Positions 13,171 to 33,400 of a stretch of 33,956 nucleotides of DNA are shown piece after piece. The notes under the pieces are model-generated. The model was not told where the DNA came from and did no database searches. It saw nothing but the letters and a program-made list of their open reading frames with translations. Origin of the DNA: a virus. The DNA lies in the IMG/VR virus record IMGVR_UViG_3300034071_002683, positions 1-33,956 of that record. One strand, given 5' to 3'. How positions within the stretch are numbered: the stretch's first letter is position 1; each line of letters starts with the position of its first letter. The position numbers and the translations under genes were made by a program.

Positions 13171-13200
13171 ACTATAGTCTATCCTACTATTTATTGTCAA
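13171..13200 (-). promoter_or_regulatory. early-family promoter
   Basis: Minus strand: -35 TTGACA (13195-13200), 18-bp spacer ATAAATAGTAGGATAGAC, -10 TATAGT (13171-13176). It drives the gene starting at 13138. Confidence 0.8.
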
Positions 13201-14070: not shown

Positions 14071-14247
14071 TTAATATTCGTCATCGTCTTCTTTATTGTC
14101 TTCATCGTCTTCATCGTCTTGATCATCTTCATCATCACCACCATACAGTTCATGAATGCTACTAGCTTCACGAACTACTGCACATCTGCCCAATGCAGGT
14201 ACATAACTGATGGCTTGTGCCTTTCCATTTTTCCATCTATACTTCAT
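14071..14247 (-). CDS. 58-aa protein with a very acidic tail
   Basis: A 58-codon frame starting MKYRWKNGKAQAISYVPALG; from about residue 36 it is almost only Asp and Glu (GGDDEDDQDDEDDEDN). The ATG has AGGAGACA about 6 nt upstream and an early-family promoter at 14274-14302. A short basic/beta head with a long acidic tail recalls DNA-mimic inhibitors and histone- or polymerase-binding phage proteins; this is a hypothesis only. It converges with the HNH gene. Confidence 0.7.
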   Translation of the reverse strand: MKYRWKNGKAQAISYVPALGRCAVVREASSIHELYGGDDEDDQDDEDDEDNKEDDDEY

Positions 14248-14273
14248 GGTTGTTGTCTCCTGTTGATATTATC

Positions 14274-14302
14274 AATATAGTCCATCTACTATTTATTGTC
14301 AA
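14274..14302 (-). promoter_or_regulatory. early-family promoter
   Basis: Minus strand: -35 TTGACA (14297-14302), 17-bp spacer with ATAAATAGTAGATGGAC, -10 TATATT (14274-14279). It drives the acidic 58-aa gene. Confidence 0.85.
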
Positions 14303-14320
14303 TAGGTTTTAGAAAAATAT

Positions 14321-14947
14321 TTATAGAGACAAGTGTTTCTGCAAAATCTCTTGTACAACTTCTTGTACAACTTCTTGGCTACCACTGCCATCTACTTGGA
14401 TAGTTGAAGATGGATGAGACAAGTACAAATCTGCATAACCCGCTTGTACCCGACGGTGAAAAGCAATTGTCTCTTGTTCAATACGATCTAATTTAGCTTG
14501 TCCGCGCTTACGCAGTAACCCTACCTCTACATCCACGTCTAACCAAATAGTTACATCACTCAGTAAACCTCCTGTGGCAATCTGATTGAGATTATTAATT
14601 AGACTCATATCTAAACCCCTACCATAACCTTGGTAGGCAATAGTAGAGTCTGTATAGCGATCGCACAGAATATATTTTCCCGTAGCCAAGTTTGGTTTTA
14701 GCTCCTCTTGGATATGCTGCACTCTGTCAGCAGCATACAATAGAAGTTCTGTAACTTCATTTATGGGCTTATCTACTGGCTTTGACAGTAATAACTCTCG
14801 TAAGCTTTTCCCTAATTCTGTTCCTCCTGGTTCACGGGTTAGCATTACAGGTATACCTAGACTTTCTAGCCATTGGGAGCAAAGGTGCATCTGGGTAGTT
14901 TTCCCACAACCCTCTACCCCTTCAAAAACAATTAACTTACCATTCAT
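14321..14947 (-). CDS. tmk: thymidylate kinase (dTMP kinase)
   Basis: A 208-aa bacterial-type thymidylate kinase, full length. The P-loop FEGVEGCGKTTQ is at the N-terminus, then LTREPGGTELG (DR/E substrate motif), CDRYTDSTIAYQGYGRGLD (dTMP binding) and the LID region after TIWLDVDVEVGLLRKRG. It phosphorylates dTMP to dTDP in the cytosol for dTTP supply during phage replication. It starts at the ATG at 14947, about 100 bp after the primase gene, and is probably co-transcribed with it. It could be of host origin. Confidence 0.95.
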   Translation of the reverse strand: MNGKLIVFEGVEGCGKTTQMHLCSQWLESLGIPVMLTREPGGTELGKSLRELLLSKPVDKPINEVTELLLYAADRVQHIQEELKPNLATGKYILCDRYTDSTIAYQGYGRGLDMSLINNLNQIATGGLLSDVTIWLDVDVEVGLLRKRGQAKLDRIEQETIAFHRRVQAGYADLYLSHPSSTIQVDGSGSQEVVQEVVQEILQKHLSL

Positions 14948-14976
14948 ATTAGTAGATGTAGGCGCAGCCCAAGAGA

Positions 14977-15043
14977 GACACCAGTATTTAAGGTGTCGTT
15001 TTTTAGATTTTTACCAGACATCTAGTGGGTTGCTCCCACTAGA
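14977..15043. promoter_or_regulatory. two hairpins between primase and tmk
   Basis: GACACC/GGTGTC (14977-14982, 14992-14997), with a T run only on the plus side, and TCTAGTGGG/CCCACTAGA (15021-15029, 15035-15043) with a 5-base loop. Neither has a T run on the minus strand, so they may shape mRNA processing between primase and tmk rather than terminate. Confidence 0.45.
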
Positions 15044-15051
15044 TTATTCCA

Positions 15052-18000
15052 CTAAACCTTAGTAGCCCGCTTTAGTATGCGAATAATAAGGTGGGCGGGG
15101 ATAGGTAAAAACTGTCTGGTTTTTGTTCCGTTAGGATTTTTTTGGAGAACGCTGATCACATAACCCGTTTCATTGACCTCTTTAACTGGTCCTTGGATTG
15201 GGTGATTGAGTTCTTTTGCCCGGTCATTCACAAAAAATTCAACCACATCATCAGGTGATGGGTTGCCTTGTGGAACAGGTGACGGGTCGGAAGTATTGTC
15301 CTGGGTAGGGTTTGGGGAAAGTGACGGCAGATCCAATACTGCATCCCCTCTATATATAGGATCTATGTTCTTATCCTCTATTGGGGACATGGGAGAAGAG
15401 AGACTAGAATTATTATTTCTAATTTCCATTGGAGTATAAGAGTTCTCGTCACTACCCTCAAAAGCCTTATCTAGCAAGACTTCTGACCCGTCACTGCCTT
15501 CTAAACTTTTCCCGTCATGTGTCAAGGAACTGGACAAAAGTAGTTCGTGAGTGGGAATTTCGTCGTCTAAACCTGTCTGCCGCAACCGCAACCCGACAAT
15601 AAATTTGCCAGTATTTGTGGCTTTGTGTTTCACCCCCCAACCCAGAACTGAGTTGCACAACTCAATTAAGTCAGGGCTAAAGGTCTTAGACGCTTTGGCT
15701 TGGCTACCTGTCTCTGCACAGTGTCTAGAATAGCTGCCGAAGAGGGTCTTAATGAGACCACCATCAGCACCTTCATTCTTGTTACTGCCTACAGGGGTCA
15801 TGGCTGTAGGATCGTAAATCACTTTCTCGTTTAACCAGTCAGCTAACGAGTCTACACGCATTCGGTTAACCCAGAACTCAAGGGTGCATTCTGGTATCTC
15901 TTGGATACCAGACAACACCTTTCTTACATAGTCGTCATCAAGACTCAGAACGTGATTGGTGAAAGCTGCTAATTCCGGCTCAAACAGTTCCTCAAGATTT
16001 TTCCGCTTGGCTATCCCAACAGTGTTGTTACATGGTACTGTAATCACTCGCCGCTTAACCCTACTAGCACTGTCACCTGCAAATACAGGTAAGTTAGAAC
16101 AGACTGCCACCATGCCGTCATAGCGGTAGCTAAAGGCCTTTTGACCTTTGTTCTCAGCACGTAGCAAATCCTCCCCGGTTAAAGAGAGGAATTTCCCTAG
16201 TTTTCCGGTTGCTTTATCTTCATCAGGAAACAACACAAGCCGCTTCTGGTAGGCATTAGCAGCTTCAAAGTTGTTATTACACCAATCATCAAGGGTGCTG
16301 GTATGCACGTTCTGAGAACCGATTAAGGACACGAGTAACCGGGTAAACGTACCCTTGCCTGTGCCACCTAAACCAATTAAGTGCAAAAACTTCTGTAGGT
16401 CTGAGCGACCTTTGATGACGGCGTTGCAATAGCACATCAAAAGATCCTTGATCTGTTGATTGCCACCGCTTAAATGGTTCAAAAACTCATTGATGTTATC
16501 CCAGCTCGTAGCCTCTCTGTCATATTCCCTGGGTAGTTGCCATGTCAATCTGTATCCAGGAGCATGAGGCATTAACTTTCCAGTTTGAATTTCTAGGACA
16601 CCATTTCTAAATGGGAGTAGTTCTTTAGGCGATCGCTCTACCCAAGTACGCTGAATCAAATGATGCCTAAGCATTCTGGTAACGTTAGTGATGTACCCAT
16701 CACCACCGTAGCCAGTGTATCCTTTGCCTTCAACAATATTCATTACTGCACTGGCAATGAACTGATCGGTTTCCACAGCCCAAACACCTGGGGAGTCCGC
16801 CTGGTAGCGCATCCAACGCAAGCTGGCATTGTTGAATGCAAGAATATCTCGGTATTCTTCGGCGATTTCCGCTGCCAAAATATCAGGAGTAGGGATTTTC
16901 CGCTTCTCCTGAAAGTGTAATTCGAGTTTTAGCTTGTCCAACCTTGTTTTTACCTCTTTGAGAGATTTTTTTAGTTCCTTGGGGTTTTTGGTGATTAAAT
17001 CATCTAAACCCTTACCATGTTCAGGTTTCCACCGCATTTCCAATAGATAGGTCTCACTATCTTTTAATAGATAGTGAAATCTTCTATTAGCTTTCAGAAC
17101 AGCCTTGACGGCTGTTTTTTTGGTGTCTCTGTCCATTGCCAGGATCATAGCAGATCCGTCTCCAGTAAATTGCTCAAGGGCTGGGTTAATCTCTTTTTTC
17201 CCCCCACAGGAACATCCATAGACAGCGATCGCGCATAACCCAGTGCTTAAACCTGACAACGCTTTTTTACCACCCTCTGTCAAGAATCTAGGCACTTCTG
17301 GCATTTCTTTAATAGCATCCCAGAAGCTACCGCCCATGGGAATATCAGTTCCCCACAATTTATTAATTTTTTCCCTGATGGACTTAGGCACGGGTGGTAA
17401 GTATGGTTTATCCCCAATTCCCTTGGGAGCAAAATATGAATATTCCCTGTGCTTAGACGGGATGTTGACAATCACCTGCCAAATACTCCCATCTTCATTT
17501 TTCAAGAATGCTCCTAATAATTCATTCTTGGAAATATTGTGTGTGAATCGGGTTTTTTTCCATCCCAAGGTCTCATGAATAGGGTATGAAGCGTCCATTC
17601 CATCAGACCATTCGCACTCTCGATGGAACTCAACAGCACTTTCAAATAGTGCCGGGTCAATTCCACTCCCTGTAGTAAAATCCGTAAAAACTTTTTTCTT
17701 AAATTGTTCAAAAATGTCTTGACAATTGTTATTTGATTGCGCTATATTAATAGCATGATTTGAATTATTCATATCATTCTCCATTGTGACACTGTTTAAT
17801 TTATTCATATTGTTCTCCTTAGTAATGGTAGTGTTTAAGTTATTCATGTCATTCTCCTTAGTAATGGTAGTGTTTAAGTTATTCATGTCATTCTCCTTAG
17901 TAATGGTAGTGTTTAAGTTATTCATGTCATTCTCCTTAGTGATGGTAATGTTTGAATTGTTCATGTCATTTTCGATTGTGGCACTGTTTAAATTTAGATT

Positions 18001-18156
18001 ATTCATTTGATACTCCTTAGTATCGGTAGTGTTTAAATTATTCATGTCATTTTCTACTGTGGTAGTAGTGTTTTTCACTTGATACCCCTTGGTATCGGTA
18101 AGATTTAATTCAGTTGAGTTCATGGTGTTCTCTGTGTTTAATTGAGTTAAGTTCAT
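15052..18156 (-). CDS. phage/plasmid primase-helicase (DUF3854 TOPRIM-like + D5/SF3 helicase)
   Basis: A 1034-aa replication protein. Residues 1-130 are low-complexity repeats (MNNLNTTITKEND units). A DUF3854/TOPRIM-like primase region follows (FLTEGGKKALSGLSTG near 290, AMILAMDRDTKK near 340), then a D5-N-type region (WVERSPKELLPFRNGVLE, near 510) and an SF3 helicase: Walker A GLGGTGKGTF (near 600), Walker B VLFPDED, sensor VCSNLPVF, arginine region RVKRRVITV. The C-terminal 250 residues carry a winged-helix-like part and a polar tail. It probably primes and unwinds the phage replicon. The true start among ten in-frame ATGs is uncertain. Confidence 0.9.
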   Translation of the reverse strand: MNLTQLNTENTMNSTELNLTDTKGYQVKNTTTTVENDMNNLNTTDTKEYQMNNLNLNSATIENDMNNSNITITKENDMNNLNTTITKENDMNNLNTTITKENDMNNLNTTITKENNMNKLNSVTMENDMNNSNHAINIAQSNNNCQDIFEQFKKKVFTDFTTGSGIDPALFESAVEFHRECEWSDGMDASYPIHETLGWKKTRFTHNISKNELLGAFLKNEDGSIWQVIVNIPSKHREYSYFAPKGIGDKPYLPPVPKSIREKINKLWGTDIPMGGSFWDAIKEMPEVPRFLTEGGKKALSGLSTGLCAIAVYGCSCGGKKEINPALEQFTGDGSAMILAMDRDTKKTAVKAVLKANRRFHYLLKDSETYLLEMRWKPEHGKGLDDLITKNPKELKKSLKEVKTRLDKLKLELHFQEKRKIPTPDILAAEIAEEYRDILAFNNASLRWMRYQADSPGVWAVETDQFIASAVMNIVEGKGYTGYGGDGYITNVTRMLRHHLIQRTWVERSPKELLPFRNGVLEIQTGKLMPHAPGYRLTWQLPREYDREATSWDNINEFLNHLSGGNQQIKDLLMCYCNAVIKGRSDLQKFLHLIGLGGTGKGTFTRLLVSLIGSQNVHTSTLDDWCNNNFEAANAYQKRLVLFPDEDKATGKLGKFLSLTGEDLLRAENKGQKAFSYRYDGMVAVCSNLPVFAGDSASRVKRRVITVPCNNTVGIAKRKNLEELFEPELAAFTNHVLSLDDDYVRKVLSGIQEIPECTLEFWVNRMRVDSLADWLNEKVIYDPTAMTPVGSNKNEGADGGLIKTLFGSYSRHCAETGSQAKASKTFSPDLIELCNSVLGWGVKHKATNTGKFIVGLRLRQTGLDDEIPTHELLLSSSLTHDGKSLEGSDGSEVLLDKAFEGSDENSYTPMEIRNNNSSLSSPMSPIEDKNIDPIYRGDAVLDLPSLSPNPTQDNTSDPSPVPQGNPSPDDVVEFFVNDRAKELNHPIQGPVKEVNETGYVISVLQKNPNGTKTRQFLPIPAHLIIRILKRATKV
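17772..18060 (-). repeat. tandem 39-bp in-frame repeats with ribosome-binding sites and ATGs
   Basis: In-frame ATGs lie at 18156, 18123, 18045, 18006, 17964, 17925, 17886, 17847, 17808 and 17772, mostly 36-42 bp apart. Three units (17925 to 17809) are identical, 39 bp each. In at least six, GGAG or GGAGA stands 5-8 nt before the ATG (AAGGAGAATGAC then ATG), so each repeat is both coding sequence and a translation start region. Confidence 0.85.
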
Positions 18157-18189
18157 GGTCTTATCCTTTTGATTTTGTTTTCGTCTGTG

Positions 18190-18278
18190 TCCACAAAGTT
18201 TCTCTTGTGGATCTTCGGTTCAAGAAGAGTTTGTTTTGTTCCTGGACTCTTCTTAGTCAACAATTAACAAGATTGTTG
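18190..18278 (-). promoter_or_regulatory. three leader hairpins of the primase mRNA
   Basis: Perfect stems: CAACAAT/ATTGTTG (18258-18264, 18272-18278), AAGAAGAGT/ACTCTTCTT (18222-18230, 18246-18254), and TCCACAA/TTGTGGA (18190-18196, 18205-18211). They lie one after the other between the leader peptide and the first primase ATG. Confidence 0.55.
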
Positions 18279-18294
18279 TTTTCACTGTTATATA

Positions 18295-18354
18295 TTAACA
18301 AATTATTTTTAAACGTCCAAACCTGTAATTGTTCACTTTTTTCTGGATTTGCAT
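18295..18354 (-). CDS. 19-aa leader peptide of the primase transcript
   Basis: ATG at 18354 behind GAGGAGACA encodes MQIQKKVNNYRFGRLKIIC, a basic 19-aa peptide, then TAA. Good ribosome-binding site, position inside the structured leader, and a similar leader peptide at 12593 make it credible. It may couple translation to folding of the downstream hairpins. Confidence 0.45.
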   Translation of the reverse strand: MQIQKKVNNYRFGRLKIIC

Positions 18355-18379
18355 TTTTTGTCTCCTCTTTTTGTTTGAT

Positions 18380-18444
18380 AAAGCCGATGTTTGCCGCATC
18401 GGCTTTTATGTGTTTATTATATCATGCCCAAGCCTAAATGGCAA
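18380..18444 (-). promoter_or_regulatory. primase promoter and 5' hairpin
   Basis: Minus strand: -35 TTGCCA (18439-18444), 17-bp spacer, -10 TATAAT (18416-18421). The transcript would start near 18409 and fold at once into AAAGCCGATG/CATCGGCTTT (18397-18406, 18380-18389), which may protect its 5' end. It has no early-family spacer. Confidence 0.65.
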
Positions 18445-18561
18445 TAAGTATCTGGTAATAATTTAAGTATAAATAGTTAAGCGTGGCTGCTTATAAGTAT
18501 TCAACAAAAAGTGCTATTTCCCACATTTTCCACATTTCCCAAAAACTTAAAATATTTAAAA

Positions 18562-18592
18562 ACCCATTGGTGGTTGTTGTCCACCAATGGGT
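18562..18592 (-). terminator. rho-independent terminator
   Basis: ACCCATTGGTGG and CCACCAATGGGT around a 7-base loop; on the minus strand it is followed by TTTTTAAATATTTT. It ends the repeat-protein gene at 18614. The 18357-18561 stretch holds only the primase promoter and a few AT-rich bases with TTTCCCACA-like motifs. Confidence 0.85.
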
Positions 18593-18613
18593 CTTGTTTT
18601 TTGATGTCGTTTC

Positions 18614-18970
18614 TTATTCCCCTTTTTTAGCTTGTTTATTTTGCAACCTTTTTAGCCGTCTTTTTTCGTTGTACTTACGCATATATTCGCGCTGCTTTTC
18701 CTTCTGCTCTTCTGTCATGTTTTCTACCCATCTTTGCCTAGACTCGCGCTGCCTTAGTAGCTGGTCTTCCGTCATGTTAGCAGCCCACTCACGATTGGCT
18801 TTACGCTGCTTTTCTTTTTGTTCTTCTGTTAAGTTGGCAAGCCATTCTCGTTTAGCGTGCCGCTGTTTTTCCCGTTGTTCCTCACTTATGTTCTTTGCGT
18901 ATTTGCGTTTACGCGCCTTCCCTTTTTCAGTTGCGTTGTAGCGGGCTTGGGCTTCTGGATAGTAAGTCAT
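18614..18970 (-). CDS. basic helical protein with 19-residue repeats
   Basis: The best start is the ATG at 18970 behind GAGGACAAC (118 aa); the frame extends five codons further. The head (TYYPEAQARYNATEKGKARKRKYA) is shared with the 61-aa protein at 20203. Four consecutive ~19-residue repeats follow, each N-(I/L/M)-(S/T)-E-(E/D)-Q...RQR...R.W...N, giving an arginine/lysine/glutamine-rich single long helix. Such proteins may coat DNA or RNA or act as rulers. Driven by the early-family promoter at 18998-19026. Confidence 0.7.
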   Translation of the reverse strand: MTYYPEAQARYNATEKGKARKRKYAKNISEEQREKQRHAKREWLANLTEEQKEKQRKANREWAANMTEDQLLRQRESRQRWVENMTEEQKEKQREYMRKYNEKRRLKRLQNKQAKKGE

Positions 18971-18997
18971 GTTGTCCTCTTTCAATCTGCAAATATC

Positions 18998-19026
18998 ACC
19001 ATAGTCTATCTATTGTTTTTTGTCAA
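18998..19026 (-). promoter_or_regulatory. early-family promoter
   Basis: Minus strand: -35 TTGACA (19021-19026), 17-bp spacer with ATAGATAGAC, -10 TATGGT (18998-19003). It drives the repeat-protein gene. Confidence 0.75.
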
Positions 19027-19050
19027 CGCGACTAAGAATTGTGCTTAAAC

Positions 19051-19084
19051 ACAAAAAACCACTTAGACAAAAATCTAAGTGGTT
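19051..19084 (-). terminator. rho-independent terminator
   Basis: AACCACTTAGA and TCTAAGTGGTT around CAAAAA; on the minus strand it is followed by TTTTTTGTG. It ends the two-gene unit 19439-19085. Confidence 0.85.
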
Positions 19085-19249
19085 CTATTTTTGCTCCCAT
19101 CTCACAAAACACCCATTAAACTCAGGGTGACTTTCTAGAAAGTCGTCTTTGAGCGCGATCGCACTCATCAAATCTTCAGTAATCCAGGGACTACAAAAGA
19201 TTATCTTGCTGGTCTTGTGTTGACCAGCCTTTAATTTAAATCTGTACAT
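19085..19249 (-). CDS. 54-aa early protein, unknown
   Basis: A 54-codon frame starting MYRFKLKAGQHKTSKIIF, then CSPWITEDLMSAIALKDDF and ending CFVRWEQK. Its ATG overlaps the 3' end of the RMF-like gene by 14 nt, so translation is coupled. The size and the ending (strand, acidic helix with EDL.SAIA) are similar in style to the 54-aa protein at 12432 (DEELRAIA), so the two may be distant relatives. Function unknown. Confidence 0.6.
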   Translation of the reverse strand: MYRFKLKAGQHKTSKIIFCSPWITEDLMSAIALKDDFLESHPEFNGCFVRWEQK

Positions 19250-19439
19250 TGTCCAGGCTTTTTTCTAAAGCAGCCACCCTGACTGCTCTCATTTGTTCGC
19301 CACAAATCCAACCATCCCTTAAGGGAGAATGTTCTATGGGGCATGACACCCCAGAATTGAAAAGATCAATTCCTTGGTTAAACATTTTCAAATGTTTTTT
19401 ATGAGATTTGTGGTTGGCTAATGCTTCTTCTTTTGTCAT
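19236..19439 (-). CDS. RMF/CrpP-like small protein
   Basis: A 67-aa protein. The pattern FNQGIDLFNSG, then CPIEH, LRDGWICGEQMRA resembles ribosome modulation factor and the phage/plasmid CrpP group: two helices, a glycine turn, CP, then R..W..G...A. If right, it may bind ribosomes and lower host translation, or modify another target. AAGGAGACA precedes the ATG, behind an early-family promoter. The match is by eye and modest. Confidence 0.5.
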   Translation of the reverse strand: MTKEEALANHKSHKKHLKMFNQGIDLFNSGVSCPIEHSPLRDGWICGEQMRAVRVAALEKSLDNVQI

Positions 19440-19469
19440 ATTGCCTTGTCTCCTTTTGTTCGTATTAAT

Positions 19470-19498
19470 AATATAGTCTATCCTACTATTTATGTCAA
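19470..19498 (-). promoter_or_regulatory. early-family promoter
   Basis: Minus strand: -35 TTGACA (19493-19498), 17-bp spacer TAAATAGTAGGATAGAC, -10 TATATT (19470-19475). It drives the RMF-like gene and the gene after it. Confidence 0.85.
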
Positions 19499-19571
19499 TA
19501 GGTTTAAAGAATATTTTGTACTGAATTTTTATTAACTTTTTATACGGTGCAAATAAGTAAGTAGGACAAAG

Positions 19572-19600
19572 AACCGCTTAGACAGAACGACTAAGCAGTT
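19572..19600 (-). terminator. imperfect rho-independent terminator
   Basis: AACCGCTTAG and CTAAGCAGTT pair with one mismatch around a 9-base loop; TTCTTTGT follows on the minus strand. It ends the gene 20048-19620. Confidence 0.6.
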
Positions 19601-19619
19601 ATAGTTGAATGGCATTTGT

Positions 19620-20048
19620 TCAAAACAAACTTAACTGGGTAAACCTTTTCGGTTTTTGCCGTTGCCTAAGCAGCCAGTCAGCCGCTTCTATGCAGTATTT
19701 GATATGGCGATCGCGCCACCCCAGTCTTTCCATTTCCTGGACTTCTGGGAACTGAACCATCCAGTCCCACGCACTTATCGGGATATTTTTTCCAATTAAT
19801 TTGGGAATAACTGTAGCCATTTCTGGTTTCCAATATCGTTTCAAGCAGCCACCAACGGCTACAAAACTTTTTTTCACTTCATCCTCAGTAATACAAGAGT
19901 CCGGTGTTTCCATGCTTTCTAGTCTTTCCAGTTCAGTCTCCAAGCAAATCAGTCTGTCTACGTACATTTTTATCTTTTTGCTTATTAATTTTAAGCACGC
20001 TTGGATTTGGTGTTTTAGCACCTTTATTTTATTTTTTAAAATACTCAT
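19620..20048 (-). CDS. early protein with shared coiled-coil N-terminus (second copy)
   Basis: A 142-aa protein. Residues ~10-45 (LKHQIQACLKLISKKIKMYV, DRLICLETELERLES) match the N-terminus of the 141-aa protein at 12713. The remainder is different: ITEDEVKKSFVAVGG, WDWMVQFPEVQEMERLGWRDR, IEAADWLLRQRQKPKRF, mostly helical with several tryptophans. The common helix with swapped C-terminus suggests domain shuffling between early genes. Driven by the promoter at 20075-20103. Confidence 0.7.
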   Translation of the reverse strand: MSILKNKIKVLKHQIQACLKLISKKIKMYVDRLICLETELERLESMETPDSCITEDEVKKSFVAVGGCLKRYWKPEMATVIPKLIGKNIPISAWDWMVQFPEVQEMERLGWRDRHIKYCIEAADWLLRQRQKPKRFTQLSLF

Positions 20049-20074
20049 AGTCCCACCCTTTGTTTGTTGACTGT

Positions 20075-20103
20075 AACATAGTCTATTTACCGCAAGTTGT
20101 CAA
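20075..20103 (-). promoter_or_regulatory. early-family promoter
   Basis: Minus strand: -35 TTGACA (20098-20103), 17-bp spacer ending TAAATAGAC, -10 TATGTT (20075-20080). Confidence 0.75.
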
Positions 20104-20159
20104 CAAAATTATAAAAAATATTTCTTACGATACACTTCTAAGCACATCCCTATTCTTAA

Positions 20160-20175
20160 CTAAATAGACTATATT
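20160..20175 (+). promoter_or_regulatory. early-family promoter, -35 degenerate
   Basis: CTAAATAGACTATATT matches the conserved spacer end plus -10 (20170-20175), but no TTGACA stands 17-18 bp upstream. It probably drives the 61-aa gene at 20203 weakly or with help. Confidence 0.55.
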
Positions 20176-20202
20176 AATGTGTGCCGTTAACCAAAGATTC
20201 CT

Positions 20203-20388
20203 ATGGCTTATTATGCTGAATGTCAATCTTGCTACAACGCAACCGAAAGAGGTAAACAGCGCAAACGCAGATGGACACAAAACCTAACTGATCAACAAAT
20301 AGAAGAAAAACGCGCATATATCAGGGAATATATGCGCCAGTACAGAAAAAATAAAATACACGAAAAGACTAAGCAAACGGATTGTTGA
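20203..20388 (+). CDS. 61-aa paralogue of the repeat protein
   Basis: Starts MAYYAECQSCYNATERGKQRKRRW, matching the head of the 118-aa protein at 18614 (TYYPEAQARYNATEKGKARKRK), then contains a single NLTDQQ...REYMRQYRKNK repeat. It lacks the extra repeat units, so it is a short family member or a contracted copy. It overlaps the end of the large terminase gene tail to tail by 20 nt. Function unknown; basic and helical. Confidence 0.7.
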   Translation: MAYYAECQSCYNATERGKQRKRRWTQNLTDQQIEEKRAYIREYMRQYRKNKIHEKTKQTDC

Positions 20389-21841
20389 TTTTTCCGCCAA
20401 CAAACATACCCTTGGGTGCAGAAATACCCAACTCACCAAAAGCACCGTCGGCACTATCTACAATGTCGTTGGTGAGCGGTTTTTTGCTACCATCAAATTC
20501 ATGTACCGCAGCTAGAAACTGATCGTTCCACGCACCTCTGAGTAACTTGATTTTGCCTTGCTTGGCTGCTAATGCCATAGGTAATGCACGGGTCACTTTA
20601 TCTCCCAAGGGCTTTACGCCTTTAGCATCAAAACCAGCTAATTGCTTCCGTAAGGATGCTTCGTAGCGTTTACCCGCGCTACCACCTTCCAGTTCCCATC
20701 GGACTTTACAATCTCGCCCGTCTTGATAGGCTATTTTCACTACAGAAGCATCACCCTGATCCGCCGAAACCTGTTCCCAGTGACAGTCCAGAACGTAATA
20801 AGTATCTTGATGTAAGTACATTTTGGTGCGTACACTGTAAAAACTGGACTTGGTGGCCACCGCTGCTGATGTGGCCGCAAAATCCCAAAAAGCCACTGTA
20901 GTACCACCACTAGGCACGCTACCAACGACCTCAAACCATTGCCGATTAAAGATAGTCCCTGCTTCGTATTTAATTTTCCAATTCCCTCTCAGTAGTCGTT
21001 CCATCTCTACTGGATGCAACGACAGTAAATTTTGTAAGTATTGGGGATTGGTCTCTAACAGTATCGGATTATCATAAATCGTTGCACTAATAAAGCTGAA
21101 ACTCTTAGGTGGTGCTATTTCCGCTAAATCAGGAAACTCTATCATCAATTCCTCTTTAGTATTACCCCAGTGCAATTTTTTGTTGACTCGATAGAAATAC
21201 CGTATTGCTCCTGATCTTTCTTCTATCGGGTATCCTGTTTGCGGATCAATATACCAGTCAACTAATTTGGCCACCCATGAATCAGCGTCCGGGTTGCAGG
21301 TTGCATCTATGCGCGGCTTGACACCACATACGGAACGGTTACGAGAAAATAGAAACCAGAATTGACGCTCTGAAAACTTAGTTAATTCATCAAAACCAAT
21401 ATGACATATCTGCGACCCTGGGTATTTGTCTTCTACATCTTTGTCGTACTGGGCGTGACCAAAACTGATGGCTGTACCGTTGGGAAAAGTCCAGTCTAAC
21501 TGATGTTCCCGTCCTACTGAGTTTTTTATTCTTTTGTACAAAAGCCTTGATTCATCCCATAAGCCACCTTCATTGGTTATTTCCGGTCGGGTTCGCCTAA
21601 ATATTACTGAACCATACCCAGGCGTGTTTAGATACTTAGCTGCTTTTAGCAATAACGCAAAGCTTTTCCCGCCTCCGGCTGCTCCACCGTATATGCACAC
21701 ATCAGCCTGAGTGTCATAAAATAATTCCTGCGCTCCTATCTGTGGTTCTGGTAGTTCAACATAAACCGCTTGGTTAGTTGATGACCTGGCTTTAGTGGCC
21801 TCTCTAATTTTAATTGTGTTTTTGGGATTAAGTTTGTTCAT
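20369..21841 (-). CDS. phage terminase large subunit
   Basis: About 490 aa from the ATG at 21841 (MNKLNPKN); the frame extends to 21886, but that end lies inside a hairpin with a T run. The N-terminal ATPase has Walker A CIYGGAAGGGKSFALLLK, Walker B ICHIGFDELTKF, and the coupling region TCNPDADSWVAKL. The C-terminal nuclease has TVAFWDFAAT, WELEGGSAGKRYEASL and NDIVDSADGAFGELG with the metal-binding aspartates/glutamate. It drives DNA into proheads and cuts it. Its minus-strand position, apart from portal and capsid genes, is unusual. Confidence 0.93.
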   Translation of the reverse strand: MNKLNPKNTIKIREATKARSSTNQAVYVELPEPQIGAQELFYDTQADVCIYGGAAGGGKSFALLLKAAKYLNTPGYGSVIFRRTRPEITNEGGLWDESRLLYKRIKNSVGREHQLDWTFPNGTAISFGHAQYDKDVEDKYPGSQICHIGFDELTKFSERQFWFLFSRNRSVCGVKPRIDATCNPDADSWVAKLVDWYIDPQTGYPIEERSGAIRYFYRVNKKLHWGNTKEELMIEFPDLAEIAPPKSFSFISATIYDNPILLETNPQYLQNLLSLHPVEMERLLRGNWKIKYEAGTIFNRQWFEVVGSVPSGGTTVAFWDFAATSAAVATKSSFYSVRTKMYLHQDTYYVLDCHWEQVSADQGDASVVKIAYQDGRDCKVRWELEGGSAGKRYEASLRKQLAGFDAKGVKPLGDKVTRALPMALAAKQGKIKLLRGAWNDQFLAAVHEFDGSKKPLTNDIVDSADGAFGELGISAPKGMFVGGKINNPFA

Positions 21842-21854
21842 GGTTGCGTGCATA

Positions 21855-21891
21855 ATAAAAAAACTATTGAACTTGTCTGGGTTCAATAGTT
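21855..21891 (-). terminator. terminator-like hairpin just before the terminase gene
   Basis: Minus strand: AACTATTGAAC, 8-base loop, GTTCAATAGTT, then seven T. It ends only 3-14 nt before the two nearest ATG codons. It either ends the regulator unit upstream or acts as an attenuator of the terminase gene. Confidence 0.8.
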
Positions 21892-21973
21892 GTGTAGGAT
21901 GGGTTTTTCTACTTTTAAATTTTAGCTTAATTCTGGCATTTAATGGTAATATATTTCCATACCCTAGTAACCA

Positions 21974-22000
21974 CCCGGCAACTTGTCCATGCCGGGTTTT
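21974..22000 (+). terminator. rho-independent terminator on the plus strand
   Basis: CCCGGCA and TGCCGGG around a 9-base loop, followed by TTTT. No plus-strand gene ends nearby, so it would stop transcripts running from 20203 antisense to the terminase gene. Confidence 0.6.
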
Positions 22001-22277
22001 ATGCTATAGTAGAATCTCCAACCTTGTTAAACCTGGTGGCATTTGCAGGAACGCTGCCGGGTCTTATTTGCAATTCATCTGCTATTAATTCTGCTATTTT
22101 TCTTGCAGTTCATTCACTGTCAAATGTGTTTAACACAGGATCGTTGCCAACAATAATATTATACCATTTTCCTGTCGGAATTAGTGCTATTGATACATCT
22201 TCGTAATTGTATTTTCCATTTTTCACCTTTTTGTCATCAAAAGTATTACACCATTTTACGGAAACCAGCGATCGCAT
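21999..22277 (-). pseudogene. small gene interrupted by an in-frame TGA
   Basis: From the ATG at 22277 (TAATG overlap with the regulator gene) 55 codons read MRSLVSVKWCNTFDDKK to NTFDSE, then TGA at 22110-22112. The same frame continues for 36 codons as TARKIAELIADELQ...GDSTIA to TAA. The downstream part looks like real protein (helix RKIAELIADEL), so a TGG-to-TGA change, or use of a shorter protein, is likely. Function unknown; probably co-expressed with the regulator. Confidence 0.5.
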
Positions 22278-22534
22278 TACCTGGGCAATAGGCAATCCAC
22301 GGGAATGTTGAGTGCATCGGCTATTAATTCAATTTCGCTGTAGGTAATTGTTTGCCTGCGTCCATCTTTTTCCTTAAATAAATCTTCAATAGCAATAATC
22401 ACGTTTACTGACAGTCCGGTCTTTGCGGCTAATGCCTTCCTTGACATCCCCTGTTTTTCCCGTGCCAGGAAAATATGTATTCCTATCTTTCCTTCTGATG
22501 TCAAAGTGTCATAAATCGTAGGATCTGAAATCAT
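22277..22534 (-). CDS. XRE-type helix-turn-helix regulator
   Basis: About 85 aa from the ATG at 22534 (GTG at 22540 is also possible); no Shine-Dalgarno site is seen. It has an XRE/Cro-CI fold: IHIFLAREKQGMSRKALAAKTGLSVNVIIAIED, then YSEIELIADALNIPVDCLLP. It probably represses phage genes; the 18-bp palindrome at 22646 in the divergent region is a candidate operator. It is followed by an overlapping small gene. Confidence 0.85.
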   Translation of the reverse strand: MISDPTIYDTLTSEGKIGIHIFLAREKQGMSRKALAAKTGLSVNVIIAIEDLFKEKDGRRQTITYSEIELIADALNIPVDCLLPR

Positions 22535-22645
22535 AGTCACTGGTTGGTATTAAGTTACTAATAATATATCAAAGAAAATTGCATATTTCTACAATTATCA
22601 TTTATTTTACTATTTAAAAAATATTGAAACCCTTGATCTATTGGC

Positions 22646-22663
22646 TAAACTAAGCTTAGTTTA
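22646..22663. promoter_or_regulatory. 18-bp perfect palindrome, candidate operator
   Basis: TAAACTAAGCTTAGTTTA lies 12 bp before the ATG of the prohead protease gene, in the divergent region with the XRE regulator. It would overlap the promoter/leader of the head operon, so repression of late genes is plausible. Confidence 0.65.
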
Positions 22664-22675
22664 TATTTTTTAGAT

Positions 22676-23806
22676 ATGCCAACCGCAACTAGAAATAAAA
22701 CTATTTTAACTAAATTCTTAAATTCTGATTTGCAATTAAATCAGGATGAAAGAACAGTTGGGTTTTCGTTTTCCTCGAAAGACAATATCTGCGAAAGATA
22801 TTCTTTCTCAGAAAACTTACCCGAAGGCGCTAGTGTAGTTTTTGATGAGCGTCTATCCCACGACCCCAGCCATTGGGACTTAACCAGAGTTCTTAATAAA
22901 ACCTGTCCGTTTTTGAGAAACCATCAACGCGGACAAAAATTAGGCATGGTTTCTCAAGTGGTACTAGATGGCGATAGAGGTGTTGCCACGGTTAAGCTTT
23001 CTAGAAACGCTTTGGCAAATCAATTCATATCTGATCTTGAGGACGGCACTTCTGGTGGTATTAGTTTTGGTTATTTTGTGGAAGAATACCGAGTCATTAC
23101 CCCGGCGGAATATGTTGTTAATAAAGATGGGTATCGTTCCCTGAAAACCAAGGCACTATTAGAAGCTACTAAAATAGTTTTATTTGAAGTTTCTGCTGAA
23201 GATATTCCTGCCGATCCTACCGTGGGTTACGAGAAGTCTGAAGTATTTTTTGATCAAATTTCAGTTAAGGGAGATCCAAATTTTTACCCCATGAACAAAG
23301 ATTTAGAAGCTGAATTACTAGCCACTAAAACTGCCTTAGAAGAGGTTAAATCTAGTAACGGCATCCTGTCAGAAAAACAGGCTTTGTTGATTGCTGAAAA
23401 CAATAGATTGATTGAACAAATTAAAAGTTTAAGTCAGTCTATTGAGGAAAAAACCGCTATTATTTCTGCGTTTGAGCAGCGCGAAACCATAGTATCTCAG
23501 TATTACAGCCTGCGTCAAAAAGCAGATGGATTAGTATCAGAAGGTAAATTATCTTCTGTTGAGTTTGGTGATTTATTCTCAGAAAATGCCACCGAAGATA
23601 TCAACAAACATCTCAAATCCAATAAGTTGGGCTACATGGAATTTCACCTCGATTTAATTGAGAAAAGAACCGCACTTTTACTTAATTTGAAGCAATCAAT
23701 CAGTGAACCCGTGACTAACCCTACCCCTACTGTTAATACTGCTGATATAGAATCTCGTGCTGCTCGGATTGTAGGCTCTTTATCTCAAATTAGGAGTGAA
23801 ATCTAA
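22676..23806 (+). CDS. prohead maturation protease with scaffold-like C-terminus
   Basis: A 376-aa protein. The N-terminal ~200 residues fit the HK97-type prohead protease: FLRNHQRGQKLGMV (catalytic His region), GTSGGISFGYFVEEY (Ser), and VLFEVSAEDIPADPTVG (the conserved E.S...IPADP end). The C-terminal ~170 residues (from about 210) are coiled coil-like (LLATKTALEEVKSS, LLIAENNRLIEQIKSL) and probably act as scaffold during shell assembly, then are removed. First gene of the head operon, downstream of the operator-like palindrome. No Shine-Dalgarno site. Confidence 0.88.
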   Translation: MPTATRNKTILTKFLNSDLQLNQDERTVGFSFSSKDNICERYSFSENLPEGASVVFDERLSHDPSHWDLTRVLNKTCPFLRNHQRGQKLGMVSQVVLDGDRGVATVKLSRNALANQFISDLEDGTSGGISFGYFVEEYRVITPAEYVVNKDGYRSLKTKALLEATKIVLFEVSAEDIPADPTVGYEKSEVFFDQISVKGDPNFYPMNKDLEAELLATKTALEEVKSSNGILSEKQALLIAENNRLIEQIKSLSQSIEEKTAIISAFEQRETIVSQYYSLRQKADGLVSEGKLSSVEFGDLFSENATEDINKHLKSNKLGYMEFHLDLIEKRTALLLNLKQSISEPVTNPTPTVNTADIESRAARIVGSLSQIRSEI

Positions 23807-24747
23807 TGCGTCACGAATCTTATCGTTACGATGATGAGGAATCAGGCTTTTATCCTGTATTGGCACGTAACAACTGTGCAGAAGCTACTCGCTATACCCT
23901 ATTGAACCATAACTACGCTACAGGTACAACTGGGGCAATACGCAAGTTAGTTAAAACATTTGCACCTGGTTTCTTTGCTGGTAGTGGTACATCTGTTAAC
24001 CTCCCTGGCAATCGCATTTTGCCACGGATGACCACAAGACTTGCTACCGCTGCCAATGCTACCTCTATTAGTTTTCCTGTAGGAACGGCTGGTATTTTTA
24101 TCCCCGGCGATGTATTATCTATCATCGCACCTTCAGTGCGCTTGACCGTGACATCTACCGGAAGTGGTTGGCTTGCTAATGACACCATTACTGTCACTAT
24201 TAATGGCGTATCCGTAGTCTATACTGTTGTTTCCGCAGATATTGGTGCTTCACTAACAGCAACTAACGCTAACATTGCTACTAAAGTTATTAGTGCGATC
24301 GCATCCAATTCTTATACCTCTAGATTGGTATCTGCATTGTCCGTAGCTGGCACGGCACCCGCCTCTACTATTGTTTTTTGGGCAAAAGACTTTACCAGCC
24401 TCTACAGCTTTACCGCTAGTGCCACCGCCACCAATGGTAGCGTTACCGCATCTGGTGCTGTGTTTGTCCCCAATGTTAGCATCGGTACTATTTCTGCGGT
24501 TGACCCGGTTACTGATACCGTTACCATCAGTGCGGCTGCTGTGTCTGTACCCTTGGGTATGCCTATAGGGGTCGCTGCTAGTTCACCGGAAAATTTAGGT
24601 ATGCTATCTCCTGCTGTACCTATTGATTTGCTGTACAGAGAAAGTCAAGACTACGCTTTGTACTTAGAAGCAGACGTTTACCGCGATCGCCTACCATACA
24701 TAGACGGACAGTTGATTGCTTTGTATCCTGAAATTCGTTTGGTGTAA
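23806..24747 (+). CDS. head decoration or accessory capsid protein
   Basis: A 313-aa protein whose start overlaps the protease stop (TAATG). The middle (about residues 95-250) is a threonine/serine/alanine-rich beta domain (VRLTVTSTGSGWLANDTITV, INGVSVVYTVVSADIG) typical of phage surface or Ig-like domains. The ends (ARNNCAEATRYTLLNHNY; DALYLEADVYRDRLPY-like SQDYALYLEADVYRDR) are conserved-looking. Position between protease and major capsid protein matches lambda gpD, so a decoration protein with an inserted domain is my best guess. Confidence 0.55.
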   Translation: MRHESYRYDDEESGFYPVLARNNCAEATRYTLLNHNYATGTTGAIRKLVKTFAPGFFAGSGTSVNLPGNRILPRMTTRLATAANATSISFPVGTAGIFIPGDVLSIIAPSVRLTVTSTGSGWLANDTITVTINGVSVVYTVVSADIGASLTATNANIATKVISAIASNSYTSRLVSALSVAGTAPASTIVFWAKDFTSLYSFTASATATNGSVTASGAVFVPNVSIGTISAVDPVTDTVTISAAAVSVPLGMPIGVAASSPENLGMLSPAVPIDLLYRESQDYALYLEADVYRDRLPYIDGQLIALYPEIRLV

Positions 24748-24750
24748 TTT

Positions 24751-25926
24751 ATGGCTTCTATTATTGAATTAATTAATTCACAGCCGGGGGTAGTCCAGCG
24801 CACTATTGATTTGCAGCTTGCAACTGTTAGCAGCACTGGCGAAACCTACCTAGACGGCTACCCTGATCCGGCTCTCAATCGCTTTTTCCCTTTTGTCCAA
24901 TATTCTGATCCGGTTTTAGCACTACTCAAGATGCGGGCATACACCCCAACTCTTGCTTACGTAGTTGCTACTGATGGTACTATTCCTCAGGACGTAGATC
25001 GAATTAGTGTTACCCAGGAAACTTTTGGCAACTTTAAAATAGCTAAAAGTAGATTAATTACAGAAGAGGACTTCATGGTAATGCAGCAAGCTGAAAGGCT
25101 TGCTATGTCTGGCAATGCTGAAGCTGCTGAAAGGATTAAAGATACTTACTTAGGCATACCCGCCTCTCTGTATCAAGGATGTATTAACTTGCATACTGTG
25201 CTAACACTACAGGTCGCTTGTACCGGACAATGCAACTATGTTGATCCTACATCTCGCGCTTCTGCTATCCTTAGCTACTCAAACCAAGTCCCCACTTCCC
25301 ATTTACCAGCCGCATTAACTGGAACTGCTAGATGGTCACAGTGGACAACCGCTACTGGCATTGACGACTTAGTGAGTCATATAGAGTCCTACTATCTTAC
25401 TCTACACAAGTTCCCACCTTTTATCATTATGGGTCGGGTGACTGCTAACAATCTTAGAAACCAGACTAGCACTAAAGAATCGGTAGGGCGTGCTAAGGGT
25501 ATGATTACAGAAGTAGGAGCAGCTAACCCAGCCGCTGTCGCTGCTATGCCACCTCCATCTTTATCTGAGATTTCTGGACTGATTGGTCAACGGCTTTTAG
25601 CGGGTGGTGGTCAAAATGCAAATACGCAGATTATTGTATCCGATGCTGTCTACTATCAGCGCGGTGGCGGACGTAATGGTACTGTCGAGTTGCCTTATAT
25701 TCCCAGTGGCTACTATTTCTTTGCTACCGATAATTTTATCGAAAGAGCCATTGTCCCCACCGCAAGCAACAACTTCAGAGGCGGACTAGTTACTACCACT
25801 GATATTCTCAGTAAAGAACCACCTCAAGAAAGCATTACCGTGGCGGGTCGTGGTTTTCCGTTGGCAATGGACCCCCGATTTATTGCTGCTAGGAACGTTG
25901 AGAATACTGCGATCGCTACTATTTAG
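24751..25926 (+). CDS. major capsid protein
   Basis: A 391-aa protein after the protease and decoration-like genes. The N-terminus (LNRFFPFVQYSDPVLALLKM, RAYTPTLAYVVATDGTIPQD) has the F.PFV..DP and A-Y pattern of gpE-like capsid proteins; the C-terminus (PQESITVAGRGFPLAMDPRF) resembles their end with P.E......G.PL.....PR. Length and position also fit. No N-terminal delta domain to cleave is obvious, in keeping with a gpE-like rather than HK97-like shell. Its last 8 nt overlap the end of an oppositely oriented connector gene. Confidence 0.75.
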   Translation: MASIIELINSQPGVVQRTIDLQLATVSSTGETYLDGYPDPALNRFFPFVQYSDPVLALLKMRAYTPTLAYVVATDGTIPQDVDRISVTQETFGNFKIAKSRLITEEDFMVMQQAERLAMSGNAEAAERIKDTYLGIPASLYQGCINLHTVLTLQVACTGQCNYVDPTSRASAILSYSNQVPTSHLPAALTGTARWSQWTTATGIDDLVSHIESYYLTLHKFPPFIIMGRVTANNLRNQTSTKESVGRAKGMITEVGAANPAAVAAMPPPSLSEISGLIGQRLLAGGGQNANTQIIVSDAVYYQRGGGRNGTVELPYIPSGYYFFATDNFIERAIVPTASNNFRGGLVTTTDILSKEPPQESITVAGRGFPLAMDPRFIAARNVENTAIATI

Positions 25927-26332
25927 ACTGTGACCACTTGATCTGGCTTTGACCTCTAGTCCCAAAAAAAGATGTTCCTTTGGTTGTTGATGCTGATTCT
26001 GGACTCGTATTTGTGACAATCTTTAGCAGTCGTTGATACTCAAGTCCGTACTTACTTTGTCCATAACTATTAGGAATACTTTGAAGTTCCACATTGTAAG
26101 ACTCATCATCCACTTCTAATTTTTTTAGGACTCCTGTACTATAATCACTACCTACATTTTGCTTAGTAAGTGTGATTTTGTGAGCGGTCAATAACTCAAT
26201 TGCTACGTTTTTCAAGTTCCCCCAATGGTACAGTTCCACCTCTAGAATTGCTTCTGAAAGGAATAAGTTGAACTTAGTTTCCTCACCTGTAAATTCTGGA
26301 TATTTGATAATAAAGTTGCTGAATAAAATCAT
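25919..26332 (-). CDS. DUF4054-like head-tail connector protein, on the opposite strand
   Basis: A 137-aa protein: FIIKYPEFTGEETKFNLFLSE then AILEVELYHWGNLKNVAIEL and LTAHKITLTK. This F..(Y/F)PEF...L..A......W......A..LLTAH pattern is that of DUF4054 neck proteins. GGAGG stands 5 nt before the ATG, the best site in the region, so the reading is real. It fills the space between capsid and next gene exactly, but is inverted; its ATG and the plus-strand ATG at 26331 share CATG. It would have to be transcribed from within or beyond the gene at 26331. Confidence 0.75.
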   Translation of the reverse strand: MILFSNFIIKYPEFTGEETKFNLFLSEAILEVELYHWGNLKNVAIELLTAHKITLTKQNVGSDYSTGVLKKLEVDDESYNVELQSIPNSYGQSKYGLEYQRLLKIVTNTSPESASTTKGTSFFGTRGQSQIKWSQSK

Positions 26333-30496: not shown

Positions 30497-33400
30497 ATGA
30501 ATTTAGGCGAATTAATTGTAGAGTTGTCTGCTGATTCCTCTGAATTAGAAAAGACCTTGGAACGGGCTAAGAAGAAAGCTTATGAAGCTGCTGTATCTAT
30601 AGAAAATAGTTTTAATAAAATTAATTTAGAAATTGGGGTTGACGACGATCAACTTACTGGTTTAAATAAGCATTTAAACCTTAAAGTAGAACACCTTAAA
30701 CAAGTTAATAAATATTTTAATAGTAATCCTATTGTTGTCAATGTAGATGATAGCAACTTAACTGATTTAAATCAACACTTAAATCTCAAAGTACAACACC
30801 TTAAACAAGTTAATAAGTATTTTGATAGTAATCCAATTAAAGTTAACACTGATACTAAAAGTCTTGATGAATTAGAAGAAAGATTAGGCGGACTTTCTAG
30901 CAGAACTATTACTATTACCGTTGAATCTGATTTAAGCAAGCAACTAGAAAAAAGTTTAGCTGATGCTGTCAAAGAAGCTGTCAAAGAAGGAATGTCAGGA
31001 CAGACATCAACGGTACAGCAAGAAGCATCTAAAGAGTCCTCACAAGCAAGTAAAACACAAAATGTAAATGTAGTCGCTAGTCCTAGTCGTGCTATCTTGG
31101 ACGGGATTTTTGAGGGACTTGGTAACGGTTTCACCAATGGAATTAACCAAAGTATTGAGGATGCTGTCGGTGTAGATATTCCTACTATGACCAGAATATC
31201 TAGCAACATGATGTTGCGTTATTTTGGTGTGGGTAAAAAAGCGCAGTCAGATCCTAAAAATGAAAAAAAACGAGTAGAAGCAATTGTGACGGACGGCGTT
31301 AAAGCTTTTGTACAAGCACATGATTCAAACACTAAAGCTTTTTATACTAATACGTCTCCCGCCCGCAATACGAGTACAAGTACAGGTTCATCTGTGTCTA
31401 CCACAAGCAAAGTAAGTCAAAAGCGCAATTATTCAGCCATAGAAGATGATTTAGGCGTAGATTTTGATGCTGCTGGTAGATCGGCTTCTAAAGGGTTGCT
31501 GCGTTATTTTGGTGTGGGTAAAAAAGCGCAGTCAGATCCTAAAAATGAAAAAGCAAGAATAGAAGCAATTATACGAGGAATGGTTGATGATTATGCACCG
31601 CCACAGCCAATCAAGTTGCCTGGTTTTGTTTCCAAAGCTTTAAATACTATTGGCAATACTTTTTTACTCAGTGTTGATGAAACAATTAATGGTTTAGCCA
31701 GGCAATCTAAATCCGCTATATCTCAGGCTATTCGCAAAGGTTCACAGAGTGCATTGTCTCGATCCCCAGTCCAGGTTCAAAAAGTAGTTACTGCTTTGTT
31801 TGATGAGATGGAAGGGAAAGAAGGTGAATCATTTACAGTAGTTGCAGGCAAGGAGTTAGCAACTTCAGCCAAAAAGGGTGTTAATAGCTTATTAAAAACC
31901 ATACTTCCAAATACTTACGGTGTTGCCAAAGATTTTCTGGCAACAGGAATCAAGAAAACCTCGACAAGCACTGCCTCTCCTGTGCTTAATAGCAATACTC
32001 AGCCACCTCATATATCCAATGCAGTTTTAACACCAGATTTGGTAACAACTCAAGCACCTGTAGAACAGCCATTAAATATTCCTGTAAATATTCCTAAAAA
32101 AGCCAAAAAACCACAACCAGAACTTGAACTATTGCCTATTGAAACTACCGCAAGTCAAGTACCACAGCAGTTAAAGCAGCACTTTGAAACCATAAAAACT
32201 AATACATTAAAAAATATTGATTTGTCTAAGCAGTATGCTGAAGCAACTGCTAGAGAGAACGGTGAAGAATTAGTGCCATTACAAAAAGGAAAACCCAAAA
32301 AATCAGATGAAATAAAACTGCAAAAAGAAATATCTTTAAAGGGTGTTAGTGATTCATTTACAGGCATAAATCAATATTTTAATGCAGAATATAAAAAATT
32401 AAAATCTGAGTTTGACATAGTTAAATTAACGGGAACTCCAGCAGAAATTAAAGCTACAAAAGAGAAAATTAAAAAATTTATAGATAATACCAAGCTTGCG
32501 GTACAAGACATAGATACTATTGCCAAACAAGCCCAAGATGCTGGTTTTGACAAAACAATTAACAGCGATCTTAGTAAAGTTCATGCTGGGGGTAAGTCTC
32601 AACTCAAATCCAGACAAACAAATGCCAAGGGATTGTTGGGCAAATTAAACACAGAAGAAAAAAAAGTTTTTGATAAGCAGCTTACCCACTATACACCTTT
32701 AGCTCAACAGTTAGGTATTGATATTGATGCGGGATTAGCAAAAGGTGTTAAACATGGCTCTGATGGCGTGTCAACTGCTGCCAGACAGATGCTTGATGAT
32801 TTAATTGAAACTGTTGAAGCTAAGATGAAAATCCAGTCTCCATCTTTGGTGATGTTTGAGATTGGGATGATGATAGCTTCTGGGTTGTTTCTTGGGATGC
32901 AGAAGGGGAACAGCAAAGTTGCAGTAGGGGCTAGACAGCTTGTAAGCACTGTTAAAGATGCTGTGGGTTCAGCTAAGGAAATTCTTGAACCAGCGTTGGC
33001 TATTGGTAGTCTTATACCGGGTGTGTCTACTGCGGCCACTTATGGGGGTGTAGGACTAGCCGCATCTAATTCTGGGCTAAAGATGCTTGACAAAGTAGGG
33101 GAACGGCACGCTGCTAATCCTACACAAACATTATTTCAGTCTGCGTTTGAGTCTGGAAAAGATTTTATTACTGAGTTAAAGGCTGACAAGACACTTACCA
33201 AGCCTAGAGAAGCATTTGATCATTTTATTAATTTAAGCAAAGCAGGTGCAGCTACTTTTGGTGTAAACTCATTTACTGCTTTTGATGCGGCTCAGTCTGG
33301 CATGACAGCACTTTTAAGAAGTGGTGCAACAGGAAAAGCAGTAACCCAATCTCATGGGGAAGCTAAGACCAGGTTAGCAAAAGATCCGTCTCTTGATTAC

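Follow-up and report, generated by a model that had tools for sequence, protein, structure and literature searches.

A putative tandem array of translation starts, apparently grown from the gene's own start region, in a phage primase gene

The 5' end of a primase-helicase gene in IMG/VR virus record IMGVR_UViG_3300034071_002683 (33,956 bases, the whole of which was analyzed and is here called the window) carries roughly 11 start-like units in a tandem array (positions 17772 to 18156, − strand); these contain one GTG and 11 in-frame ATGs, six of which have a GGAG before them. We tentatively read this as a natural tandem translation-initiation array whose internal starts are in use, an interpretation to which we give close to even chances. 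On this reading, translation begins at the first ATG and probably also at internal starts. The gene (15052 to 18156, −) encodes 1034 amino acids counted from the first ATG, with Pfam domains DUF3854, D5_N, and DUF5906 all above cutoff, a PHROGs match to "DNA primase," and a PDB match to a primase (7ola, E = 3.7e-12).

By the position of the A, the in-frame ATGs stand at 18156, 18123, 18045, 18006, 17964, 17925, 17886, 17847, 17808, 17784, and 17772; the in-frame GTG, with GGGG ahead of it, lies at 18078. A first-pass annotation made from the sequence had counted ten ATGs mostly 39 bp apart. The count is 11 plus the GTG, and the successive gaps (33, 78, 39, 42, 39, 39, 39, 39, 24, and 12 nt) are exactly 39 nt in 5 of 10 cases. 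Tandem Repeats Finder (TRF) reports a period of 39 bp, 6.6 copies, and a score of 302; the units are degenerate, with lengths of 11 to 15 codons and often 13. The three identical units noted earlier are confirmed as 39-mers of the MNNLNTTITKEND type, read in the AAGGAG phase (17821 to 17937, −), and the claim of a GGAG in at least six units holds for the ATGs at 18006, 17925, 17886, 17847, 17808, and 17772, each at 6 nt. That every unit is at once coding and start-like is likewise borne out, as is the placing of the conserved protein after the last ATG: this ATG is residue 129, and similarity to homologues (tested from residue 147 on) starts at residue 147. A hydrophobic open frame of 74 codons runs antisense to the array (17786 to 18010, +); it probably arises simply because the 39-bp period is divisible by three.

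A search with the primase retrieved eight related IMG/VR contigs (L002 to L009), 95 to 100% identical across the matched stretch and collinear with the window across much of their common length; L009 contains the primase only in part. All eight close relatives carry the same in-frame array, with 11, 9, 10, 7, 9, 5, 9, and 7 in-frame ATGs in L002 to L009 (the L006 array ends at the contig end) against 11 in the window. The L009 array is the same as that of L005, which leaves eight distinct arrays, and L009 was excluded from the unit, recoding, and parsimony counts below; one unit pair of L007 was left unsplit, so that one L007 context is absent from the unit, profile, codon-difference, recoding, parsimony, and Lys-codon analyses. 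A conserved leader identifies the first start, which shares the reading frame of the enzyme in 8/8 sequences having upstream DNA, and the frame is intact and stop-free in every array. The comparison of related phages that the first-pass annotation had proposed shows that the repeat make-up does vary, the number of ATGs in an array ranging from 5 to 11. Even between near-identical phages, the arrays are hypervariable in both the number and the make-up of their units: over 10.8 kb (14129 to 24917), the window and L002/G001 differ by one substitution outside the array and are identical in the conserved 2664-bp part of the primase, and between 17740 and 18160 there are 42 differing alignment columns. 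Compared with L003 or L008, the middle block of the window has two extra MNNLNTTITKEND units, consistent with a recent tandem duplication. Other clusters of differences between the window and G001 lie outside this tract, at 14107 to 14128 and 24918 to 26264, and the dense substitutions of the latter beside 10.8 kb of near identity suggest recombination.

The array seems to have expanded through duplication of its own start region. The first (real) start region, comprising an AAGGAT-type Shine-Dalgarno (SD) sequence, the ATG at 18156, and the first codons (18136 to 18168, −), is in frame in the window and seven relatives, and the second module (18103 to 18135, −) is homologous to it across the boundary between untranslated and coding sequence, matching at 26/33 nt in the window. 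In each of 7 phages (of the 8 arrays that include upstream DNA, L009 was omitted), unit 2 agrees with the first start and its untranslated binding site at 26 to 27 of 33 nt; among 6304 ATG contexts in the window, G002, and G005, the best outside these two reaches 21/33. In L007, the 12 nt preceding the two ATGs agree at 10/12. The gene thus copied its own binding site, and the copy turned into coding sequence. On the other side, a fixed −18 to +18 profile of the later units gives the first start a low score (−2.2 bits), so that the link runs through unit 2.

Strong SD sequences, defined by anti-SD pairing of −5 kcal/mol or better and with GTG codons counted, precede 8/12 array starts in the window, 7/12 in L002, 7/11 in L003, 8/12 in L004, 7/10 in L005, 6/9 in L006 (cut by the contig end), 5/5 in L007, and 6/11 in L008. 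The baseline is 16/112 for internal ATGs and 18/38 for gene starts, the latter hand-picked from the open reading frame list and including the primase's own start. By the first-pass annotation, relatives keeping the peptide but losing GGAG and ATG would have refuted its reading; this is not what is seen, as peptide and signals are both kept, with 5 to 8 strong starts in the 7 complete arrays. When 24 distinct upstream contexts were recoded synonymously 1000 times using phage codon usage, the mean number of strong contexts was 6.0 (standard deviation, 2.1; maximum, 13), compared to 17 observed. At the Lys codon that contributes the initial G of GGAG, AAG is used in 20/20 contexts, with zero inferred changes, against 2.0 to 7.2 inferred changes at ten other third positions in the same comparison; at other array positions, Lys is encoded by AAA in 10/12 occurrences in distinct unit types. 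Codon choice thus appears to favor ribosome binding beyond what the peptide requires, which suggests selection but does not prove it. The array RNA is also predicted to be more open (mean unpaired, 0.62) than the coding sequence after it (0.46). Of the 12 array starts, nine lie at 0.59 to 0.71 and three at 0.44 to 0.46, compared to a median of 0.50 (range, 0.20 to 0.62) at 35 other starts.

The sequence shows an in-frame duplication of the gene's own ribosome-binding site (RBS) together with its start codon and initial codons, the copied RBS now being coding sequence (...KEND). A single transcript from a promoter-like site about 260 nt 5' of the first start (TTGCCA-17-TATAAT with a TG extension; 18416 to 18444, −) would carry all modules; the −10 hexamer of this site is exact in 5/8 aligned upstream regions, with one change in 3. 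Ribosomes would initiate at the first ATG plus several strong internal modules. Because the conserved region begins after the last module, every product would hold the whole conserved enzyme, and the products would form a ladder differing in the length of the N-terminal tail. Robust primase synthesis would result. The tail itself tolerates change.

Distribution was assessed in 217 genomes of one cyanobacterial family (center G010), taken as that of Dolichospermum from a named locus, of which 64 gave a primase match at E ≤ 1e-60. Among the matches listed, 36 loci (L118 to L153) were compared, of which 27 reach the gene start, six match further in only, and three (L120, L122, and L153) yield no match. 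The array is absent from the 27 homologues reaching the start (41 to 56% identity): all have a short leader, with one or two ATGs ahead of the conserved region, and their upstream peptides contain no repeat. In L142, an unrelated short repeat lies 5' of the ATG. The sole match of the repeat DNA in the 217 genomes, 35 bp in L153, was rejected as chance, having no tandem repeat and lying outside a comparable gene start. Searching viral_contigs for three AGGAG-N5/6/7-ATG modules at 23- to 55-bp spacing gave 90 matches in 86 stretches, 14 of them with at least 150 codons beyond the last module. One of the 14 (L016) is the present phage, seven sit 92 to 388 codons inside an open frame, and six (L176, L203, L209, L250, L252, and L255) extend past the available DNA; judged from open frames only, this search showed no other clear 5'-end array. 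On the sequences searched, the array is unusual and fast-changing and has so far been found only in the present phage group.

Several observations weigh against initiation at the internal sites. The codon tests are not independent, given the shared descent of units, the Lys test was chosen post hoc, and the SD-favoring bias may have been inherited with that shared ancestry. Across 34 contexts, parsimony gives a mean of 4.1 inferred changes in SD columns against 4.8 in 27 columns outside SD and ATG, so that column conservation of the SD shows no clear excess; the ATG columns have 4.1, 0, and 1.0 inferred changes, with ATG becoming GTG about four times and ATA once. No strong SD is found in the IEND, TKND, and TENT contexts or in one of two VEND contexts. 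Engineered tandem units were effective only at SD-SD distances of 15 to 21 nt, of 12 to 24 tested, as against mostly 39 nt in the window, and Escherichia coli DH5alpha used the last start only and BL21(DE3) the first and last, according to Zhang et al. (2022; PMC9723656). The array could instead be a neutral minisatellite that lies in frame within an N-terminal tail the enzyme does not need, with only the first ATG used and internal SD sequences and ATGs as inherited passengers, a serious contender that nevertheless stays well short of even chances. Such drift would fit the loss of SD or ATG by individual modules, the short, array-free leaders of the 27 homologues, and the many other tandem repeats of these phages, whose periods are nearly all multiples of three (all TRF rows except five, from one G002 region). 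It would also fit the free change of array amino acids: between the window and L003, 8 synonymous and 19 nonsynonymous codons of 135 differ in the array, compared to 65 and 11 of 888 in the core, and between L003 and L008, the counts are 4 and 5 of 135 and 62 and 11, respectively (array pairs may include nonorthologous units). A neutral origin sits less easily with the SD-defining synonymous site, unchanged in all 20 contexts as its neighbors vary, or with the at least five strong starts of every complete array, including the shortest.

Other roles seem far less probable than tandem initiation. An Asn/Thr-rich repeat tail serving as a protein spacer or binding segment would explain why the unit peptide is recognizably preserved and the frame kept; much nonsynonymous change, large length variation, and the absence of the tail from the 27 homologues make this very unlikely, and an AlphaFold2 model from 8 close sequences was structurally uninformative (mean predicted local distance difference test score, 29). 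A DNA-level role as replication-origin iterons or protein-binding repeats seems very unlikely as well. Direct repeats do lie in a replication gene, and the 400-bp segment at the array is among the most AT-rich 2.5% of the window; on the other side, unit length varies (11 to 15 codons) without fixed phase, ATG number varies likewise, and no cumulative GC-skew extremum falls at the array in the window, G002, or G006. Short-read metagenome assembly can collapse or chimerize repeats, and the eight relatives are IMG/VR contigs, to which the window, itself a virus record, is similar in kind; but the arrays differ in unit types and not just in the number of identical copies, all are in frame, and L005 and L009 yield an identical array, so there is only a slim chance that the variability is unreal. 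We also considered, as an improbable proposal compatible with the other readings, that a cis-antisense RNA crosses the array and the first RBS and controls primase translation, the array being its target zone. Its promoter-like site, TTGACA-18-TATATT (17719 to 17748, +), points across the array, matches the consensus at 11/12, and is identical in the window and seven relatives. It lies within a run of 32 DNA-invariant codons (17757 to 17662), the longest after the array (core-only maximum, 23); none of 48 background windows of the gene reaches 11/12, its TTGACAAT and CTATATT ends are shared with a recurrent phage promoter-like family, and terminator-like stems lie on the + strand beyond the array, at 18380 to 18406 (also a 5' hairpin of the sense transcript) and at 18562 to 18592. 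Against this, the evidence is a consensus match only, with 8 sites of at least 9/12 in the gene versus 6.2 (standard deviation, 2.4) in shuffles; the spacer is unlike that of the promoter-like family; and a comparable site occurs in 0/27 homologues (best, 9/12, among the matches listed). Gene starts are not generally less variable (108/608 variable codons in the first 32 compared to 712/3614 in the remainder, counted over the 19 genes, among 24 attempted, that were aligned), and 2/19 other genes likewise show one variable codon in the first 32, so that the invariant run is notable, not unique. A combined scheme, in which a self-copied start array recruits several ribosomes, module number sets primase dose, a tail-length ladder results, and a cis-antisense transcript from the conserved promoter at the array's downstream edge opposes it all, would amount to a fast-evolving translational dosage dial; we consider this unlikely.

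Sites of the promoter-like family, TTGACAATAAATAGTAGGATAGACTATA(T/G)T, occur at 13200, 14302, and 19498 (−) and 13352 (+) in the window. There are 4 to 12 per contig, the array's antisense site included, and in G002, all 12 fall within 51.6 to 63.3 kb, around the primase. Two hairpins fold in the 5' leader of the window (about 18254 to 18222 and 18210 to 18191; feature span, 18191 to 18254, −); in an alignment by eye, both stems are preserved and the loop of the second is variable. Upstream of the primase, the window and L002 have in common a leader open frame, MQIQKKVNNYRFGRLKIIC (18354 to 18295, −), with a strong SD (AGAGGAG), and in the remaining six relatives of the alignment, the frame is split by a single-base difference into two short overlapping frames that retain NNYRFG (by eye). 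An Rfam scan of 17500 to 19000 gave nothing above gathering score.

The thymidylate kinase gene (14321 to 14947, −) is 84% identical to a copy in an Anabaena metagenome-assembled genome and 83% identical to that of Dolichospermum circinale, and a freshwater Nostocales host is therefore likely; the gene was possibly acquired from the host. Among phage records, the primase DNA has no match and its protein only distant ones, and the protein encoded at 24751 to 25926 likewise had no match in the phage-record search. Tandem repeats are abundant in these phages (window 30650 to 30838, +; many sites in L154 to L173), with periods of 105, 51, 57, 39, and 15 bp and others, nearly all multiples of three. 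A small gene (14071 to 14247, −) has an acidic tail of repeats, and the window and G001 differ in this repeat; its homologue in G003 and G006 contains an in-frame 168-bp duplication.

Should the internal starts prove functional, the gene would provide a natural example of a tandem initiation array and a case of a gene able to copy its own RBS into coding sequence, and the closely related phages with 5 to 11 ATGs would offer a ready-made series for studying multiribosome loading on a cyanobacterial message. A literature search, with most subscription journals outside its coverage, found no natural array of several start units. Coding minisatellites, or variable-number tandem repeats, have tandem units in multiples of three whose number and make-up vary between close relatives; the array is alike in all these respects, with tandem units, frame kept, and variable make-up. 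Phage T7 offers another comparison, its gene 4 having one internal start and no known repeats, and the short gp4 form lacking the zinc-binding domain. The second in-frame start of T7 gene 4, at codon 64, gives gp4B (PMC12658067, PMC7073461). Judged by sequence, the present gene shares with it, besides coding for a phage primase-helicase, an in-frame internal start preceded by an SD of its own; the first-pass statement that no described phage primase has such an arrangement is thus qualified by the second start in T7, although that gene has a single internal start and no known array. Loss of a functional domain, as in the T7-type short form, is not seen here, where the conserved region would be complete in every form. 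The DUF3854/D5_N/DUF5906 primases of cyanobacterial plasmids and genomes belong to the same enzyme family (about 50 to 56% identity in the closer set) but differ in the gene start: among the matches listed, the 27 reaching it have 1 or 2 upstream ATGs and a short leader free of an array. On paper, the array resembles an engineered tandem initiation system. In the work of Zhang et al. (2022), engineered tandem RBS-start units in Bacillus licheniformis gave one protein band per unit and, with six units, up to 5-fold output; genes with multiple RBSs are said to be rarely reported, and two Streptomyces leaders having two potential RBSs are mentioned in the introduction (PMC9723656). Tandem units were without benefit in Bacillus megaterium, according to Connor et al. 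(2024; PMC10821235). The likeness consists of repeated in-frame units of RBS and start codon before a single coding sequence, with each unit capable of lengthening the product; the engineered units are synthetic and were shown in Gram-positive hosts, whereas the present array is natural and carried by a phage of a probable cyanobacterial host.

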